The position numbers were made by a program, and so were the translations under genes. Below the pieces are notes generated by a model. That model worked only from the letters and a program-made list of their open reading frames with translations, was not told the DNA's origin and searched no databases. Source: an uncultured Desulfobacteraceae bacterium (GTDB lineage Bacteria; Desulfobacterota; Desulfobacteria; Desulfobacterales; UBA5852). Taken from it: a stretch of DNA of 64,000 nucleotides. Location: NCBI GenBank assembly GCA_913060875.1, contig CAJXSL010000003.1:211045-275044 (forward strand), read 5' to 3'. Below, piece by piece: positions 1 to 51,765 of the stretch; the stretch's first letter is position 1; every line of letters starts with the position of its first letter.

Positions 1-1822
1 GAATATCTCCCGGGGCGAGGTCGACCGCATGCCCCGCGTTTCCCAGGCGACGCAAAATGCGTTTCAGCAAAAACAGACGCTCGCCATCGTCAACGATACG
101 AAAGGCAATATCCGGCTGCTCATCCCGGATCAGCATCCAGCATAGGGCATGAAACGTTGCGGTCAGAGGCAGGGGAGCCCCTTTGTCCAGCAGATGGGTC
201 AGTCGGGTCCGCATTTCATCGGCGGCCTTTTCCGTGAACGTCACGGCCAGGATGTTATCCGCCGACTCGCCGCGCTCCTGAATCAAATGGGCGATGCGGT
301 GGGTCAGGGTGCGGGTTTTGCCGGTTCCCGGTCCGGCCACGATCAACAGGGGACCCTGTTCATGATCGATGGCCGCCTGCTGTTCGGGATTCGACCGGTT
401 CACATGGTCGGAGGAAGACCGTACCGGAACCGGCATCTTCTCGATGGGGTTTTTAACGCCAGGATCAAGCTCCGGATCCGTGCTGGTTCCGTTCCGCGGG
501 GTTTTCGGGGATTGTTGCGGAGGACTTGCCATACCCGGGAAAAGACGCCGCTGACCCAACAGGCGGCGCTTTTCACCATCGCTGAAAATGCGAATCCGCC
601 CATACTCGCCGTCATACCCCGCCTGGATATCCACCTGTCCCGATCGCATGCGGCGAATCGCTTCACCCAGGAGGGGAATACCCGTGGCATCGATTTGCTC
701 CGGCAAGGCCTCCCGCAAGATATGCAGTTCGTTTCCGATGGATGACAAAACCAGGGCATAGGCCCGCCCCACCGTCTTGGTGGCCGGTCCCACCTGCAAC
801 ACCTCGGCCAGCATTTCCGGCAGGGGAATCAGGCTCTCAAAGGGCTTCTGCCCTTCGGGGATATCTTCGGGGTTGCGGTCGGCCAGAACATGAATCCGGT
901 TGGACACCCCGACCGTCAACGGACGTCCACATACCGGACACTTTCCATCCAGAGCCTGGGTTTCTTCAGGGGTCAGTCGGACGCCGCATTTGCGGTGTCC
1001 ATCCAGATGATATTTGCCCTCTTCCGGATAAAATTCAATCGTCCCGCCGAACCCTTCGGAAGCAGGTTCTTCCAGGGCCGACCGTATGGCATCGTAGCCG
1101 GGCTGGCCGTTGAAAATATTGGCCTCGCGGGCCAGTTTGGAAGGCGAGTGGGCATCGGAATTGGAAACCAGGGTCAGCCGATCCAGACCGGATACAAGCC
1201 GGTTCATGGCCGGATCGGAAGACAGACCTGTCTCAGCAGCGAAAATATGCCCGGAAAGGTCGTCAAAACATTCTTCCAGGCTGTCAAACCCCGATTTGGA
1301 TCCCAACATGGAAAACCAGGGTGTCCAGATATGGGCCGGTATCAGAAAAGCACGCGCATCAGTTTCCAGCAGGATCTCGAGTAAATCACGGGCATCGAGG
1401 CCGAGGATAGGGCGCCCGTCCGATCGAATATTGCCGATGTCGTCCAGACGCCGGTTGAAACGTTCGGCGGCTTCCAGGGTTGGCAGAAAAACCAGATTGT
1501 GGTTTTTGCGGGTTTTGCCATTTTTTTTGTAGATATTACTGATTTCCGACACCAGCATGAAATGCACCGGCCCGTGGCATTGGGTCGGCACCTCCTGCCG
1601 GCAGGCGGCCGCCAGGTCGTCATTCAACCGCAACAAACCGTTTTCCGTCGGCACCAGCTTCGATTTAATTTCTGCAAACCAGCCGGGGTGGGTGGCATCC
1701 CCGGTACCGACGACCGTAATCCCTTTCATCTGAGCGGCGATATAGAGATGCTCCAAATCAAGCTTTTTCGATGTCGCCCGTGAAAAGCGTGAATGCACAT
1801 GCAAATCGGCTAAGAAGGTCAT
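1..1822 (-). CDS. PHP/EndoQ-like endonuclease fused to UvrD-type helicase (C-terminus off window)
   Basis: About 607 codons are visible with no stop; the gene runs off the left edge. The start ATG is at 1822-1820. The N-terminus carries a PHP metal-site pattern (residues about 5-12, DLHVHSRFS), followed by HPGW and the later SNSDAHS segment, as in the TIGR00375/EndoQ family. A cysteine zinc-ribbon pattern (CG...CPVCG) follows. After a low-complexity linker the second half starts a superfamily 1 helicase, with a Q motif (NPEQQAAI), Walker A GPGTGKTRT near residue 492 and motif Ia TFTEKAADEM. EndoQ enzymes nick DNA 5' of deaminated bases and UvrD helicases unwind it, so a DNA-repair role is inferred. 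The fused arrangement is one I recall from deltaproteobacterial genomes. Helicase motifs II-VI lie outside the window. Confidence 0.85.
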   Translation of the reverse strand, partial: MTFLADLHVHSRFSRATSKKLDLEHLYIAAQMKGITVVGTGDATHPGWFAEIKSKLVPTENGLLRLNDDLAAACRQEVPTQCHGPVHFMLVSEISNIYKKNGKTRKNHNLVFLPTLEAAERFNRRLDDIGNIRSDGRPILGLDARDLLEILLETDARAFLIPAHIWTPWFSMLGSKSGFDSLEECFDDLSGHIFAAETGLSSDPAMNRLVSGLDRLTLVSNSDAHSPSKLAREANIFNGQPGYDAIRSALEEPASEGFGGTIEFYPEEGKYHLDGHRKCGVRLTPEETQALDGKCPVCGRPLTVGVSNRIHVLADRNPEDIPEGQKPFESLIPLPEMLAEVLQVGPATKTVGRAYALVLSSIGNELHILREALPEQIDATGIPLLGEAIRRMRSGQVDIQAGYDGEYGRIRIFSDGEKRRLLGQRRLFPGMASPPQQSPKTPRNGTSTDPELDPGVKNPIEKMPVPVRSSSDHVNRSNPEQQAAIDHEQGPLLIVAGPGTGKTRTLTHRIAHLIQERGESADNILAVTFTEKAADEMRTRLTHLLDKGAPLPLTATFHALCWMLIRDEQPDIAFRIVDDGERLFLLKRILRRLGNAGHAVDLAPGDI

Positions 1823-1921
1823 AATAGTGAGGTCCCGATCATTCGTAAACCACCTGCAGCTCCTGTATTAGCGTATGAAAATGGCTGTGGTGGCAAACAA
1901 CCACCAAATCCCTTAAAAACC

Positions 1922-1950
1922 TTGTATTTTTTAGGCAATCAGGCTATATA
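1922..1950 (+). promoter_or_regulatory. Possible promoter upstream of the rdgC-like gene
   Basis: The 209-bp gap between two divergent genes holds an AT-rich stretch with TTGTAT at 1922-1927, a 17-bp spacer and TATATA at 1945-1950, about 80 bp before the start at 2032. The -35 element is a poor match, so this is only a candidate. A second AT-rich TATATAT lies near 1976-1983. Confidence 0.25.
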
Positions 1951-2031
1951 TTTCTACTTTTTTGGAATGGCTACACTATATATTGTATTTTAGCCTTAAA
2001 ATCAGATGATCATCAATGGGTTTGTGACCAA

Positions 2032-2643
2032 ATGGGCCTTTTATCAACGAGTGTATCGATCACCCAATATCGCGTCGAGGGCGAGTTGCCTTCACCGGTC
2101 AATGAAAATGTAACGGCCGCGCTTAAAAAACATACCATCAACGAAATCGACAACGATGCCAGCGAACAGGCCGTTGGATGGACATCTTTCGACAATCCCT
2201 ATCAACCCGATTTCGAAGGATCCCGTTTTGTCATCGATACCGCATGGGTGTTTTCCCTGCGCATCGATAAAAAAAGCATACCGGCCAAAGTTTTAAAAAA
2301 ACATTATAACATCGAAGTCGCCAGACGCCTGGTCGAATCCGGACGGGACTATCTTTCCAAAACGGAAAAAAAACAACTGAAGGATCATGTCATCACGGTG
2401 CTCAGCACCCGCATCCCCGCAACGCCCAATATTTACGACATTGTCTGGAAATATGAAGAGGGGCGGTTATGGTTTTTCTCCAATTTAAAAGCGGCCAATG
2501 AAGAACTGGAAACTCTTTTTACACGATCGTTCAAGTTGAGTCTGATTCGCCTGTTTCCGTATACCGCCGGTTTGGATGCCGGTTTAAAAGGACCGGAGAA
2601 GGATTGCCTGGATCAGTTAAAGCCAACCCTTTTTATGGATTAG
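2032..2643 (+). CDS. rdgC: RdgC-like recombination-associated protein
   Basis: A 203-residue protein. The N-terminus (MGLLSTSVSITQYRVEG), GWTSFDNP near residue 50, RIDKKSIP, a KTEKKQLKDHV segment and the later NIYDIVW...LWFFSNLKAANEEL...LIRLFPYT region match the layout of the RdgC family as I remember it from delta-proteobacteria. RdgC in E. coli is a ring-shaped DNA-binding protein that restrains RecA-mediated recombination; that role is transferred by family only. The protein is shorter than E. coli RdgC (about 300 residues), lacking part of the C-terminal region. There is no strong ribosome-binding site ahead of the ATG. The next gene starts 3 bp after its stop, so the two are probably co-transcribed, just upstream of dnaN. 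Confidence 0.7.
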   Translation: MGLLSTSVSITQYRVEGELPSPVNENVTAALKKHTINEIDNDASEQAVGWTSFDNPYQPDFEGSRFVIDTAWVFSLRIDKKSIPAKVLKKHYNIEVARRLVESGRDYLSKTEKKQLKDHVITVLSTRIPATPNIYDIVWKYEEGRLWFFSNLKAANEELETLFTRSFKLSLIRLFPYTAGLDAGLKGPEKDCLDQLKPTLFMD

Positions 2644-2646
2644 AAA

Positions 2647-3186
2647 ATGTTGGATATCGCCGTTGCATACCGCCGTTACCAGTTTATCGGCGATGAATTT
2701 CTTACCTGGCTTTGGTTTGTTATCGAACAGGACGCCCCTCTTCTCCGTCGTCTCGACAACGAACTGGCATCGCTGGAAATCGGCAACCGCATGGTGTTTG
2801 AAAACCGCTATCGTAAAGACAGCGGCGAAACCGTCACGATAAAGGGGGATGAAGCCAATATGGACGAAGGCCTCCTGGCCCTTAAAAAGGGTGCTATGGT
2901 GGCTGAAGTCAATCTGGTCTATCGTGCCGGCGACCATGAATGGCGCTTCAATCTTAAAGGTGAAAGCCTCAATTTTTCCAGTCTGAAGGTACCGGAGACA
3001 GGCAAAATTGAAACCAGTGACGATATCGAAGGCGCCGTGATCGAAAAGGTGTACCTGTGCGAAAAAATCACCAACCTCATCAACGCTCTCTTTGCTCACT
3101 TTATCAAACTGAGGGTTTCCAACGAATGGTCTGCCCAAACCGTCCCGTCCATTCGCAAATGGATCGGTTCGGCATCGGATGTTTAA
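2647..3186 (+). CDS. Conserved hypothetical protein, rdgC-dnaN intergenic gene
   Basis: A 179-residue protein I cannot assign. It is acidic-to-neutral, soluble looking and has no signal peptide, transmembrane helix or recognised motif. The sequence opens MLDIAVAYRRYQFIGDEFLTW and alternates predicted helix and strand. It begins 3 bp after the RdgC-like gene and precedes dnaN by 211 bp, so it is probably translated with the RdgC-like gene. A partner role in DNA recombination or replication is suggested only by position. Reading frame, spacing and codon usage resemble the neighbours, so it looks like a real gene. Confidence 0.7.
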   Translation: MLDIAVAYRRYQFIGDEFLTWLWFVIEQDAPLLRRLDNELASLEIGNRMVFENRYRKDSGETVTIKGDEANMDEGLLALKKGAMVAEVNLVYRAGDHEWRFNLKGESLNFSSLKVPETGKIETSDDIEGAVIEKVYLCEKITNLINALFAHFIKLRVSNEWSAQTVPSIRKWIGSASDV

Positions 3187-3397
3187 AAGGCATGCAAACA
3201 TTGTCGATAACAGGTAAGTTATGAACATCATCAGCTCAACGGTTCACAATCGGGTGGATCTCAACTTGTTCTCAACGCGTTATCAACAATTAAATTTAAA
3301 ATAATTTTTTGAAAATTCAAATAGTTATATTTTTAATAAACATATTGACAACGTATTATCTCCTTTATTCTCTAATCTTGTATAAAGGAAAAAATCT
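3187..3397 (+). promoter_or_regulatory. AT-rich dnaN upstream region with promoter-like and DnaA-box-like elements
   Basis: This 211-bp spacer is much richer in A+T than its surroundings. It contains TTATCAACA at 3280-3288, one mismatch from the DnaA box TTATCCACA, and a perfect -35 hexamer TTGACA at 3345-3350. A convincing -10 is not obvious: TATTCT lies at 3366-3371 (15-bp spacing) and TTCTCT at 3368-3373 (17-bp spacing). AAAGGAAAAAATCT precedes the dnaN ATG as ribosome-binding site. The single weak box is not enough to call an origin. Confidence 0.4.
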
Positions 3398-6960
<3,563 letters not shown>

Positions 6961-48808: not shown

Positions 48809-49043
48809 ATGGCAGCCCTTATCAGCTATAATTTATTCCTAGGATAAGAAATAGAGACGAATACCACAACCGTTTCCTTCTGTAAAGTAATATCTGAAAC
48901 GGTATTGTGCCACCATGCCAGGGAGGTTTTTTTGAGCATTGGCCGATCCTGATGAAATGGCGGACATAACGGCGCTAGGCATGAACACGGGGTTGAAAGG
49001 GAAACCCCGTTGCAATTTGTTGGGGGGTGTATTATGTGTCTGC
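48809..49043. other. Gene-free spacer between dksA-like gene and cobalamin riboswitch
   Basis: This part of the 544-bp gap has no gene. It contains the interrupted inverted repeat at 48865-48909 and a TATTAT at 49030-49035 that could be a -10 element for the riboswitch transcript; a TTGCAA at 49010-49015 is too close (14 bp) for a good -35. Confidence 0.4.
48865..48909. repeat. Interrupted inverted repeat upstream of the bzaF transcript
   Basis: CACAACCGTTTC at 48865-48876 is complementary to GAAACGGTATTGTG at 48896-48909 except for a 2-nt insertion; the loop is 19 nt. It is 56 bp from the dksA-like start on one side and before the riboswitch on the other. It could be an operator for either divergent gene or a small hairpin element. 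Confidence 0.5.
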
Positions 49044-49228
49044 AATGTTGTTGTGGTGCCTTTCGTTTGGCGAAGGGTGAAAAGGGAATACGGTGTAAAT
49101 CCGTAGCGTTGGACCAGCGCTGTAAGCAGGGACTGATGCCGCAAAAGGCCACTGCCCGGCCAGCATCCGGGTGGGAAGGCGTGGCGTCGGATGGATCTGC
49201 GAGCCAGAAGACCTGCCCGGCAACTCAT
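49044..49228 (+). ncRNA. Cobalamin (AdoCbl) riboswitch
   Basis: The conserved cobalamin-riboswitch blocks occur in order: GGTGCC at 49055, AAAGGGAATACGGTG at 49081-49095, CCGTAGC at 49101-49107, GCCACTG at 49148-49154, GGGAAGGC at 49173-49180, and the B12 box CTGCGAGCCAGAAGACCTGCC at 49197-49217 (21 bases, split here by its core AGCCAG..GACCTGCC). GTTG near 49047 can pair with CAAC near 49221 to close the domain. It lies 125 bp before the ThiC-like gene and should reduce its expression when cobalamin is present. Confidence 0.93.
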
Positions 49229-49262
49229 AAAGGAAGGATGGTGTCCGCTGAATTCCGTGTAT

Positions 49263-49292
49263 CGCGCCCGGGTGCGATGCGCGGTTTTTTTT
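49263..49292 (+). terminator. Probable riboswitch-controlled terminator
   Basis: CGCGC at 49263-49267 pairs with GCGCG at 49279-49283, followed by G and an eight-T run (49285-49292), between the riboswitch and the gene. An alternative ATCGC/GCGAT stem overlaps it. The arrangement fits a transcriptional expression platform in which ligand binding favours the terminator. Confidence 0.6.
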
Positions 49293-49352
49293 GCCGCGAC
49301 GCCCCGGTTGCGCCTGATTTAGAACGCCAGAAAACCAGGGAGGTTATGGCAG

Positions 49353-50687
49353 ATGCAGACGCAACTTGAATTGGCTCGAGCGGGCCACATCACCCCACAG
49401 ATCCAAACCGTGGCCAAACAGGAAAACGAATCGCCGGAGGTTATTTGCCGCCGGGTGGCTAACGGCCAAATCGTCATCCCGGTCCATCCGGGCCGACCGG
49501 ACCAGAAAGTCGTCGGCATTGGCAAGGGCCTGCGCACCAAAGTCAATGCTTCCATTGGCACCTCATCCGACATTATCGATCTCGATCTGGAGATCCGCAA
49601 AGCCCGCATTGCGGAAGAGGAAGGCGCGGACACGCTGATGGAGCTGTCCACCGGTGGCGACCTCAATCGCATCCGGCGCGAAATTCTTGCCCATACACGG
49701 CTTCCGGTCGGCAATGTTCCCCTCTACCAGGCGTTTTGCGAAGCTGCCCGGCGCTATCGCAATCCCAACCGGCTCGACCCGGAATTTCTTTTCGATCTGA
49801 TCGAACAGCAGTTGGCGGATGGCATTTCGTTCATGGCCATCCACTGCGGCATAAACCAATACACCATCGAGCGGCTGCGGAACCAGGGTTTCCGATATGG
49901 AGGCCTGGTGTCCAAAGGGGGAACCTTCATGGTGTCGTGGATGGAATACAATCGGCAGGAAAATCCGCTCTACGAACAGTTCGAGCGGGTCTGTACCTTG
50001 ATGAAACGCTATGATGCCGTGCTTTCCCTGGGCAATGGCATTCGGGCGGGCGCTATCCACGACAGCCATGACCGGGCCCAGATGGCGGAAATGATCATCA
50101 ATTGCGAACTGGCGGAACGGGGACGGGCTCTGGGGTGCCAGACCATGGTGGAAGGCCCCGGCCACGTTCCCCTGGATGAGATCGAAGGTAATATCATGCT
50201 GGAAAAACGCATGAGCGGCGAGGCCCCTTATTACGTCCTGGGTCCGTTGCCGGCGGACAGCGGGGCGGGTTATGATCATGTCACGGCGGCCATCGGAGCA
50301 GCCAATTCGGCCCGCTATGGGGCCGACCTGGTTTGCTATATAACGCCGGCCGAGCATCTGGCCCTGCCCAATGAAGACGACGTCCGCGAAGGTGTTCGCG
50401 TGACCCGGCTGGCGACACGCATCGGCGATATCGCCAAATTCCCGGAGCGGCGGGAGGTGGAAAAGCAAGTGGCTCTGGCGCGGCGGGATAGCCGCTGGGA
50501 AGATCATTTCAAGCTGCTTATGTTCCCGGACCGCGCCCGGGAAATCCGTGCTGAGCGAACCCCGGAAAACCAGAAAACATGCACCATGTGCGGCGATTTC
50601 TGCGCCATGGAAAGAGGGGCGGCCCTGTTTGCGGCGGCCACCAGTCCTGAAAAACGTGCCGGGCGTCCGGCCGATCAGCCCCAATGA
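49353..50687 (+). CDS. bzaF: ThiC paralogue, probable 5-hydroxybenzimidazole synthase BzaF
   Basis: A 444-residue radical SAM enzyme of the ThiC family, with AIR-binding regions (GTSSDIIDLDLEIRKA, DTLMELSTGGDL, MVEGPGHVPLDEI) and the C-terminal cluster motif CTMCGDFCAM. The cysteine spacing is CX2CX3C, one residue shorter than the CX2CX4C I recall for enterobacterial ThiC. ThiC makes the thiamin pyrimidine; the paralogue BzaF makes 5-hydroxybenzimidazole from the same aminoimidazole ribotide. Cobalamin (not TPP) riboswitch control and cobT 16 bp downstream favour BzaF. No bzaC-type methyltransferase follows. The ATG follows GGGAGG. Confidence 0.8.
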   Translation: MQTQLELARAGHITPQIQTVAKQENESPEVICRRVANGQIVIPVHPGRPDQKVVGIGKGLRTKVNASIGTSSDIIDLDLEIRKARIAEEEGADTLMELSTGGDLNRIRREILAHTRLPVGNVPLYQAFCEAARRYRNPNRLDPEFLFDLIEQQLADGISFMAIHCGINQYTIERLRNQGFRYGGLVSKGGTFMVSWMEYNRQENPLYEQFERVCTLMKRYDAVLSLGNGIRAGAIHDSHDRAQMAEMIINCELAERGRALGCQTMVEGPGHVPLDEIEGNIMLEKRMSGEAPYYVLGPLPADSGAGYDHVTAAIGAANSARYGADLVCYITPAEHLALPNEDDVREGVRVTRLATRIGDIAKFPERREVEKQVALARRDSRWEDHFKLLMFPDRAREIRAERTPENQKTCTMCGDFCAMERGAALFAAATSPEKRAGRPADQPQ

Positions 50688-50703
50688 AGGGAAAGGAGTC
50701 ATC

Positions 50704-51765
50704 ATGAAACGCATCAATGCAGTCCTTGACAGGATCGTCCCTCCGAGTGCCGAATGGCGGGAAAAAGCCAATGAACGCCTGCGGCAGCAGGCCCGGCCGG
50801 CCGGCAGCCTGGGGGTTTTGGAGGATGTCAGCGCCCGGCTGGCCGGTATCGCCCGGACACTGGATGTACGCCTAGAACGAAAAATGATTGTGACCTGTGC
50901 AGGTGACCATGGTATCTGCGACGAAGGCGTCAGCCTTTTTCCCGCCGAGGTCACCCCGCAAATGGTTTACAATTTTATAAACGGCGGGGCTTCGATCAAT
51001 GTGCTGGCGCGCCACGCCGGGGCCGCGGTCAAAGTGGCCGATCTGGGGGTGAACTGGGACTTCGAGCCGGATTTACCGATTTTCCATACTAAAATTCGCA
51101 AAGGCACTGACAATTTCGCCCGGGGACCGGCCATGTCCCGGGACGAAGCCATCCAGAGCATCATGGCCGGTATCGACATCGTGGACCAGCTGCACGCCGA
51201 GGCGCCTGTCGATTTGCTGGGCACCGGCGACATGGGTATCGGCAATACGACGCCATCCACCGCCATCATTGCCGCTTTTTCAGGCCTGCCGCTGGATCAG
51301 CTGACCGGTCGGGGAACCGGCATCGATGATGAGGGGCTGCAGCGCAAGGTGGCCGCGATTGAAAAAGGACTGGCTGTCAACCAACCCGATCCCCGCGACG
51401 CCCTGGATGTGCTCGCCAAGGTGGGCGGGTTTGAAATCGGGGGACTGGCCGGCTTGGTGATCGGTGCGGCGGCCAACGGCATTCCCGTGGTATGCGACGG
51501 GTTTATTGCCACGGCCGGCGCCTTGGTGGCCTGTGAACTGGCACCCCCGGCCCGGGATTTTCTCTTTACCAGCCACTATTCCGTGGAAGTGGGGCACCGT
51601 TACATGCTCAGCCGTCTGGATCGGGAACCGCTGCTGGATCTCAAATTTCGACTCGGCGAGGGCACCGGTGCGGCCGCGGCCATGGAATTGATCGACATGG
51701 CTACCCGCGTACTGGCGGATATCAAAACGTTCGAGGAGGTGGCGATTCAGGATGCTCAGGGATAA
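50704..51765 (+). CDS. cobT: Nicotinate-nucleotide:benzimidazole phosphoribosyltransferase
   Basis: A 353-residue enzyme that activates a benzimidazole base to its alpha-riboside phosphate, ready to become the lower ligand of a cobamide. CAGDHGICDEGVSLFPAEVTPQMVYNFINGGA is diagnostic, followed by GTGDMGIGNTTPST and GEGTGAAAAMEL with E319 as the likely catalytic base. It is translated from ATG 50704 after AAAGGAG, in the same transcript as bzaF and so also under the cobalamin riboswitch. Its stop is only 5 bp from the end of the convergent dppF-like gene. Confidence 0.96.
   Translation: MKRINAVLDRIVPPSAEWREKANERLRQQARPAGSLGVLEDVSARLAGIARTLDVRLERKMIVTCAGDHGICDEGVSLFPAEVTPQMVYNFINGGASINVLARHAGAAVKVADLGVNWDFEPDLPIFHTKIRKGTDNFARGPAMSRDEAIQSIMAGIDIVDQLHAEAPVDLLGTGDMGIGNTTPSTAIIAAFSGLPLDQLTGRGTGIDDEGLQRKVAAIEKGLAVNQPDPRDALDVLAKVGGFEIGGLAGLVIGAAANGIPVVCDGFIATAGALVACELAPPARDFLFTSHYSVEVGHRYMLSRLDREPLLDLKFRLGEGTGAAAAMELIDMATRVLADIKTFEEVAIQDAQG

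Follow-up and report, generated by a model that had tools for sequence, protein, structure and literature searches.

A cobalamin riboswitch ahead of a BzaF-type ThiC paralogue and cobT: a probable lower-ligand operon in an uncultured Desulfobacteraceae bacterium

When a gene of the ThiC family stands behind a cobalamin riboswitch, does its product serve thiamin or B12? This question is raised by a locus within a stretch of 64,000 nucleotides (hereafter the window) from the genome of an uncultured Desulfobacteraceae bacterium (assembly GCA_913060875.1, contig CAJXSL010000003.1, positions 211,045 to 275,044 of the forward strand), in which the ThiC-like gene is followed by cobT. Our analysis indicates that the locus is very probably a cobamide-repressed bzaF-cobT operon for the lower ligand of a cobamide, with 5-hydroxybenzimidazolyl cobamide as its likely product. 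This reading is built on the aptamer and the terminator, the gene order, the branch membership and active-site signature of the ThiC-family protein, and conservation in relatives. The features of the locus are as follows (positions are those of the window):

49037-49233, + strand: cobalamin riboswitch aptamer (RF00174); Rfam cmscan 100.8 bits, gathering score 31.5, E 4.8e-24
49255-49292, + strand: intrinsic terminator, the probable expression platform; 13-bp stem, 4-base loop and eight T, found by pattern scan
49338-49343, + strand: probable ribosome binding site of bzaF (GGGAGG), from the sequence
49353-50687, + strand: bzaF, probable 5-hydroxybenzimidazole synthase of the ThiC family, 444 aa; PF01964 570 bits, BzaF branch 100/100
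50704-51765, + strand: cobT, nicotinate-nucleotide:benzimidazole phosphoribosyltransferase, 353 aa; TIGR03160 434.9 bits (cut-off 319.3), PF02277 436 bits

Only 16 nt separate the stop of bzaF from the start of cobT, which has a GGAG ribosome site of its own, in agreement with the original prediction that the two genes share an operon. The cobT frame opens at an upstream GTG (50548) in the list of open reading frames; we favour ATG 50704 because of the family match and the ribosome site.

The ThiC-family protein and its active site

To place the window protein, we compared it with its matches in 394 genomes of the phylum. Full-length proteins of 59-100% identity occur in 85 genomes, together with a contig-edge fragment of 66% (G301), and the next among the matches listed lie at or below 51%. 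In a tree of 112 rows, this high-identity group makes up one side, with 62 rows, 8 of them from Geobacteraceae isolates, set apart by a branch of length 1.88 with a Shimodaira-Hasegawa-like approximate likelihood ratio test value of 100. A bootstrap tree of 55 rows, made up of 30 rows from the BzaF side (of 62) and 25 from the ThiC side (of 50), with E. coli omitted for its long branch, returned the BzaF/ThiC split at 100/100 and placed the window protein on the BzaF side. In neither tree does the window protein group with thiamin ThiC. The larger tree left out duplicates, be they of the window locus (L001, L008, L097) or of another locus (L098, L099, L108, L110), genes that are truncated or broken (L049, L089, L113), and rows shorter than 400 aa; rows were trimmed at 480 aa. 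It represents the 80 named loci by 8; their titles read Geobacteraceae, Desulfuromonadales or genera thereof in 66 cases, Deltaproteobacteria or Proteobacteria in 12, and Actinomycetota or Coriobacteriales in 2. These last two loci (L199, L200) come from metagenome-assembled genomes with such titles; their BzaF-type genes share 88-90% identity with the Geobacteraceae query, and they represent either mis-binned contigs or transfers. The Geobacteraceae serve as the anchor of the BzaF side, as bzaF is reported in Geobacter sulfurreducens (GSU3005), a maker of 5-hydroxybenzimidazolyl cobamide (excerpts of PMC7726332 and PMC8123684).

A further group of ThiC proteins in the window's order (L061, L064, L065, L067, L070, L071, L073, L075, L080, L083, L087, L088) shows low Pfam scores like those of BzaF and a C[ST]MCG[ED]WC motif. 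These 12 loci fall on the ThiC side of the tree, have the ThiC residues described below, and carry a thiamin pyrophosphate (TPP) riboswitch in 8 cases.

The two sides of the tree also differ at fixed positions of the active site. Residues were mapped through alignments to AtThiC, with E413/E422 and C474 serving as numbering checks. Where AtThiC has Asn228, Arg343 and Asp383, the window protein has Ser67, Lys188 and its own Asn228. The same Ser, Lys and Asn are present in all 62 BzaF-side rows; all 50 ThiC-side rows, E. coli included, have Asn, Arg and Asp. A pattern search of the 80 named loci, which covered the first and third sites, recovered Asn at the third site in all 80 and Ser at the first in 75, the remaining five being unmatched by the pattern. 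In AtThiC, Asn228 contacts the ribose 3'-OH, Asp383 the imidazole N3, and Arg343 the adenine of S-adenosylhomocysteine (excerpts of PMC4389238 and PMC11117688), and the N228D and D383A variants form no hydroxymethylpyrimidine phosphate (HMP-P; excerpts of PMC11117688). Invariant in all 112 rows are the phosphate anchors Ser342, His322, Tyr286 and Arg386, the iron ligands His426 and His490, as well as Glu422, CcThiC Cys474 and the three cluster cysteines. Judging from these alignments, the substrate, iron and cluster sites are kept, and two residues of the later ThiC steps and one contact to S-adenosylmethionine (SAM) are changed. Such a pattern would agree with a shared start of the two reactions, the radical of aminoimidazole ribotide (AIR), and a different end.

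Two other candidate discriminators were discarded. The reactive Cys474 of CcThiC does not separate BzaF from ThiC, being conserved in all rows. The original prediction had also pointed to the CX2CX3C cluster motif, one residue shorter than that of enterobacterial ThiC. The motif is indeed present (CTMCGDFC) and E. coli ThiC lacks it, but 49 of the 50 ThiC-side rows, that is all but E. coli, share it, and within the phylum its length is thus not diagnostic.

From the signature we derive a further idea, which we offer tentatively and rate at somewhat less than even: that the exchanges Asn228Ser, Arg343Lys and Asp383Asn send the AIR cascade to 5-hydroxybenzimidazole, and that some lineages, the window's among them, keep the B12 version only, with AIR feeding B12 alone and the thiamin pyrimidine being imported. 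The three-residue signature is absent from the examined parts of two ThiC papers (PMC4389238, PMC11117688). The primary BzaF papers (Hazra 2015, Mehta 2015) lay outside this check, and we make no claim to newness.

Probable control by cobalamin and linkage to cobT

RF00174 is the sole Rfam match of the whole window at gathering thresholds and spans the full-length aptamer, which leaves the cobalamin riboswitch as clear as first described. The terminator, originally called probable, is likewise well founded. Its hairpin (49255-49284, 13 bp, then eight T) has the longest stem among nine terminator-like sites between 48800 and 51900, where 3.1 are expected in shuffles, and the segment 49234-49310 folds 3.4 standard deviations better than its dinucleotide shuffles (z -3.4). 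The leader is thus probably a B12-sensing RNA switch that would, upon binding its ligand, shut off bzaF and cobT.

We extended this analysis to 31 BzaF loci of the window's order, a number that includes the window and the truncated gene L049. Every full-length match scoring 554-597 bits was taken in, as were some with higher scores; the L049 fragment, from G005, is the only fragment among them. In 29 of the 31, the Rfam scan detected a cobalamin aptamer ahead of the gene and in its orientation, and a TPP riboswitch in none. On the ThiC side, a TPP riboswitch lies upstream on the gene's strand at 16 of 40 loci, in some cases at a distance of ~0.95 kb, and at none of the 40 was a cobalamin aptamer detected in the gene's orientation (that of L096 points the other way). 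One batch of 20 ThiC-side loci, with flanks of at most 1.5 kb, yielded just 2 of the 16 TPP riboswitches, and absence there is no proof; of the 30 loci L014-L043, 20 were scanned. All 29 BzaF leaders contain a hairpin with a T run between aptamer and start, where 0.7 are expected in shuffles (approximate dinucleotide shuffle, 60 per leader). For 26 leaders the distance from aptamer to hairpin is 42-57 nt; L050, L077 and L078, which make up the remainder, have partial aptamer matches. Because this arrangement recurs in every leader, control is most likely exerted by termination, that is, as an off-switch operated by the end product.

Linkage to cobT recurs as well. Among the 31 loci of the order, 16 have cobT as their immediate downstream neighbour in the same orientation. 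Of 132 BzaF-side loci, 17 have cobT immediately downstream and 63 have it upstream in the same orientation, whereas the stretches fetched for the other 52, often with short flanks, do not contain it; among the named loci it is upstream on the same strand in 61 of 80. The same script found no cobT in the fetched stretches of the ThiC-side loci, 30 of which have flanks of at most 1.5 kb.

Two relatives of the order show other genes behind bzaF. In L051 (genome G142, 963-3865), a cobalamin riboswitch is followed in turn by bzaF, by a gene that fuses an O-methyltransferase to a DUF2284 domain, and by a radical-SAM gene whose BzaD-like protein reaches 423 of 450 bits; G142 is without a second ThiC-family match. 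This locus can be described as the bzaF counterpart of the methylating bza operon. In L054 (G144, 1853-2911), an O-methyltransferase gene stands directly behind riboswitch and bzaF, and cobT is absent from the fetched stretch; the methyltransferase is possibly BzaC.

The operon of the window is flanked on the opposite strand by dksA upstream and by an apparent oligopeptide-type ATP-binding cassette (ABC) transporter downstream, the latter judged by eye.

Probable cobamide product, thiamin supply and competing readings

The genome of the window (5.88 Mb, 30 contigs, 99.73% complete) contains six cobalamin aptamers, that of the bzaF leader included. Near the three on contig 5 are genes for a receptor resembling BtuB and a binding protein resembling BtuF, neither of which reaches its cut-off, and for an ABC ATPase of the corrinoid/heme type. 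Another, on contig 9, lies near genes for CbiL and CbiQ (above cut-offs), two CbiK-like proteins (below theirs) and a corrinoid-type ATPase; the sixth is on contig 1. Because genes of corrinoid synthesis and uptake thus accompany the cobalamin riboswitches of contigs 5 and 9, cobamides are probably produced by the cell as well as taken up.

Within this setting we propose the following scheme. At low coenzyme B12, transcription would pass the leader, and bzaF and cobT would be expressed. As a ThiC-family radical-SAM enzyme, BzaF would convert AIR to 5-hydroxybenzimidazole, which CobT would activate to the riboside phosphate. CobS would then join the riboside phosphate to the corrinoid, giving 5-hydroxybenzimidazolyl cobamide. 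Once enough adenosylcobamide is available, the aptamer would be bound, an antiterminator would be exchanged for the terminator, and transcription would end before bzaF.

The least improbable of the alternatives concerns the base itself, namely that it is methylated further, to 5-methoxybenzimidazole or 5,6-dimethylbenzimidazole, by bzaC, bzaD or bzaE genes elsewhere in the genome. The original prediction had argued for the hydroxylated base from the lack of these genes downstream. The list of open reading frames of the window indeed holds no bza methylation gene after cobT. In the whole genome, the best match to BluB reaches 56.5 of 150 bits and the best to BzaD 189 of 450, the latter in a search without positive control, since none among 14 control genomes reached the BzaD cut-off. 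A different radical-SAM family, TIGR04072, gives the best BzaD match a better score (288.7 bits), though one that falls short of that family's cut-off of 360. Because BluB and BzaD both stay below their cut-offs, 5-hydroxybenzimidazolyl cobamide is the likely product. However, the BzaD cut-off can miss relatives, as the score of L051 and the control genomes illustrate, although the best match in the window genome is far lower than that of L051. In addition, the genome-wide searches did not cover BzaC and BzaE, and two relatives of the order have methyltransferase-type genes just behind bzaF. The downstream part of the prediction therefore stands, and we regard later methylation as unlikely.

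Several observations weigh against a BzaF operon. In the first place, bzaF is the sole ThiC-family (PF01964) match of this nearly complete genome; the search for a second thiC gave none, an outcome that the original prediction had listed among its refuting signs. Its product also passes the NCBIfam ThiC models (PRK13352, 560 bits with a cut-off of 410; TIGR00190, 512.4 with a cut-off of 460). As a Geomonas protein of the BzaF branch passes them too, these models do not separate BzaF from ThiC. Furthermore, the D383N variant of AtThiC is partly active as ThiC (excerpts of PMC11117688), and Glu422 and CcThiC Cys474, which are tied to late ThiC steps, are kept in all 62 BzaF rows, so that residues of the late steps have not been lost altogether, which speaks against a simple form of the shared start and different end. 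The tree is anchored on the Geobacteraceae as a family, the proven BzaF of G. sulfurreducens being outside the locus set. Finally, 2 of the 31 loci of the order lack the aptamer (L057, L059), and in 15 of the 31 cobT is not directly downstream, one of them having only 137 bases downstream.

Some of these points could be met by assuming that the gene encodes the thiamin ThiC of the cell under an odd B12 control, as its singular occurrence and the passed equivalog cut-offs would allow. However, the protein does not group with ThiC, contrary to another of the refuting signs in the original prediction, and the three residues Asn228, Arg343 and Asp383 are missing. Moreover, the two TPP riboswitches of the genome, back to back on contig 8 (L010, L085), do not precede bzaF. 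One precedes thiD, thiW and the ATPase and T components of an energy-coupling factor transporter, the other an ABC ATPase, a permease and a binding protein of the NMT1/THI5 type, a set which we take to resemble a ThiXYZ-type pyrimidine importer. Both units are probable importers of thiamin precursors, and a fused ThiE-ThiL is encoded ~9 kb away. ThiG and ThiM were not found above cut-off in the genome; a Thi4-type enzyme was not searched for. As no separate ThiC match exists, the thiamin pyrimidine would be left to uptake. Since the TPP riboswitches precede thiD and probable precursor importers, the lack of a separate ThiC is consistent with such uptake and does not force bzaF to be ThiC. A genome of the same genus encodes both types, with bzaF downstream of a cobalamin riboswitch (L046) and a ThiC-side gene downstream of a TPP riboswitch (L047); it is listed as 7% contaminated, and its ThiC may be foreign or gained. 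A loss of thiC from a syntenic place was considered and is not supported, the L047 region matching the window genome only inside bzaF and over 61 bases. Taken together, we consider a plain thiamin ThiC the least probable of the readings and highly improbable.

Hardly better placed is a double-duty enzyme, in which the only ThiC-family gene would also yield enough HMP-P for thiamin. In its favour, 6 of the 85 genomes with a full-length BzaF-type match, the window genome included, have no second ThiC-family match. The other five (G040, G154, G220, G243, G401) are at least 90% complete and show weak (19-29% identity) or no match to the THI5-like binding protein of the window genome, and G401 has a full-length ThiG. 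The partial activity of D383N and the retained Glu422 and Cys474 point the same way. On the other hand, AtThiC N228D gives no HMP-P, and a cobalamin-repressed gene would be a poor source of thiamin. In addition, the sole copies in the tree (window, L045, L048, L051, L056, L100) all keep the BzaF signature, those scanned (all of these but L100) all have a cobalamin aptamer, and L045 and L048 come from genomes only ~80% complete. We therefore hold double duty to be very improbable as well.

THI5-like uptake as a general replacement of ThiC in BzaF-only genomes is not supported, as judged by the weak or missing matches in those five genomes. Among 32 genomes searched, THI5-like matches of at least 59% identity outside the window genome were confined to G001, G002, G003, G005, G015, G433 and G494. 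G003 has both ThiC and such a match, and the BzaF-only genome G142 has one of 35%.

The reading of the ThiC paralogue as BzaF, put forward in the original prediction, is thus favoured by the tree, the residue signature, the association with riboswitches across relatives and the thiamin genes of the genome.

Naming and relation to known systems

Because the NCBIfam ThiC models are passed and no BzaF model appeared in NCBIfam scans of the window protein or the Geomonas protein, automatic annotation would name this gene thiC. Genomes would then look capable of making thiamin when they may not be, and the type of lower ligand would stay hidden. BzaF profiles have been made by Shelton and colleagues (excerpts of PMC6461909). 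The fixed residue signature is the part of our analysis that should be of most use to others: if valid beyond the phylum, it would provide a simple rule for separating BzaF from ThiC, and its three sites are direct targets for point mutants that ask how so complex a radical reaction is steered to one product or another.

The operon type is already known, and the present locus is a further example. With ThiC (phosphomethylpyrimidine synthase), the window protein has in common the family, the phosphate anchors, the iron ligands and the cluster cysteines and, if it is BzaF, the substrate. It differs in its separate branch, the three active-site substitutions and a cobalamin instead of a TPP riboswitch. 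The bzaAB-cobT-bzaC(-bzaD-bzaE) operons of Moorella and Eubacterium likewise place a ThiC-like first step next to cobT (excerpts of PMC8123684). Unlike them, the window has one ThiC-like gene instead of two and no methylation genes in the operon, and its protein does not pass the BzaB model (TIGR04386, 499.5 of 700 bits).

The closest counterpart is the bzaF of the Geobacteraceae (GSU3005; Geob_0543), which shares the ThiC-family branch, the active-site signature and the linkage to cobT. The window protein is ~66% identical to that of L117, which in turn is 97% identical to a protein of Geomobilimonas luticola. The Geobacteraceae loci have cobT upstream of bzaF as part of a longer cob cluster, as in the cobT-cobS-cobC-cbiA-bzaF cluster of Geotalea daltonii (excerpts of PMC13119186), whereas the window has a two-gene unit of bzaF and cobT behind the riboswitch. 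An aptamer ending just upstream of bzaF, as in the window, was found in only one of the 12 named Geobacteraceae loci scanned (L151); in L189 the aptamer lies ~2 kb upstream.

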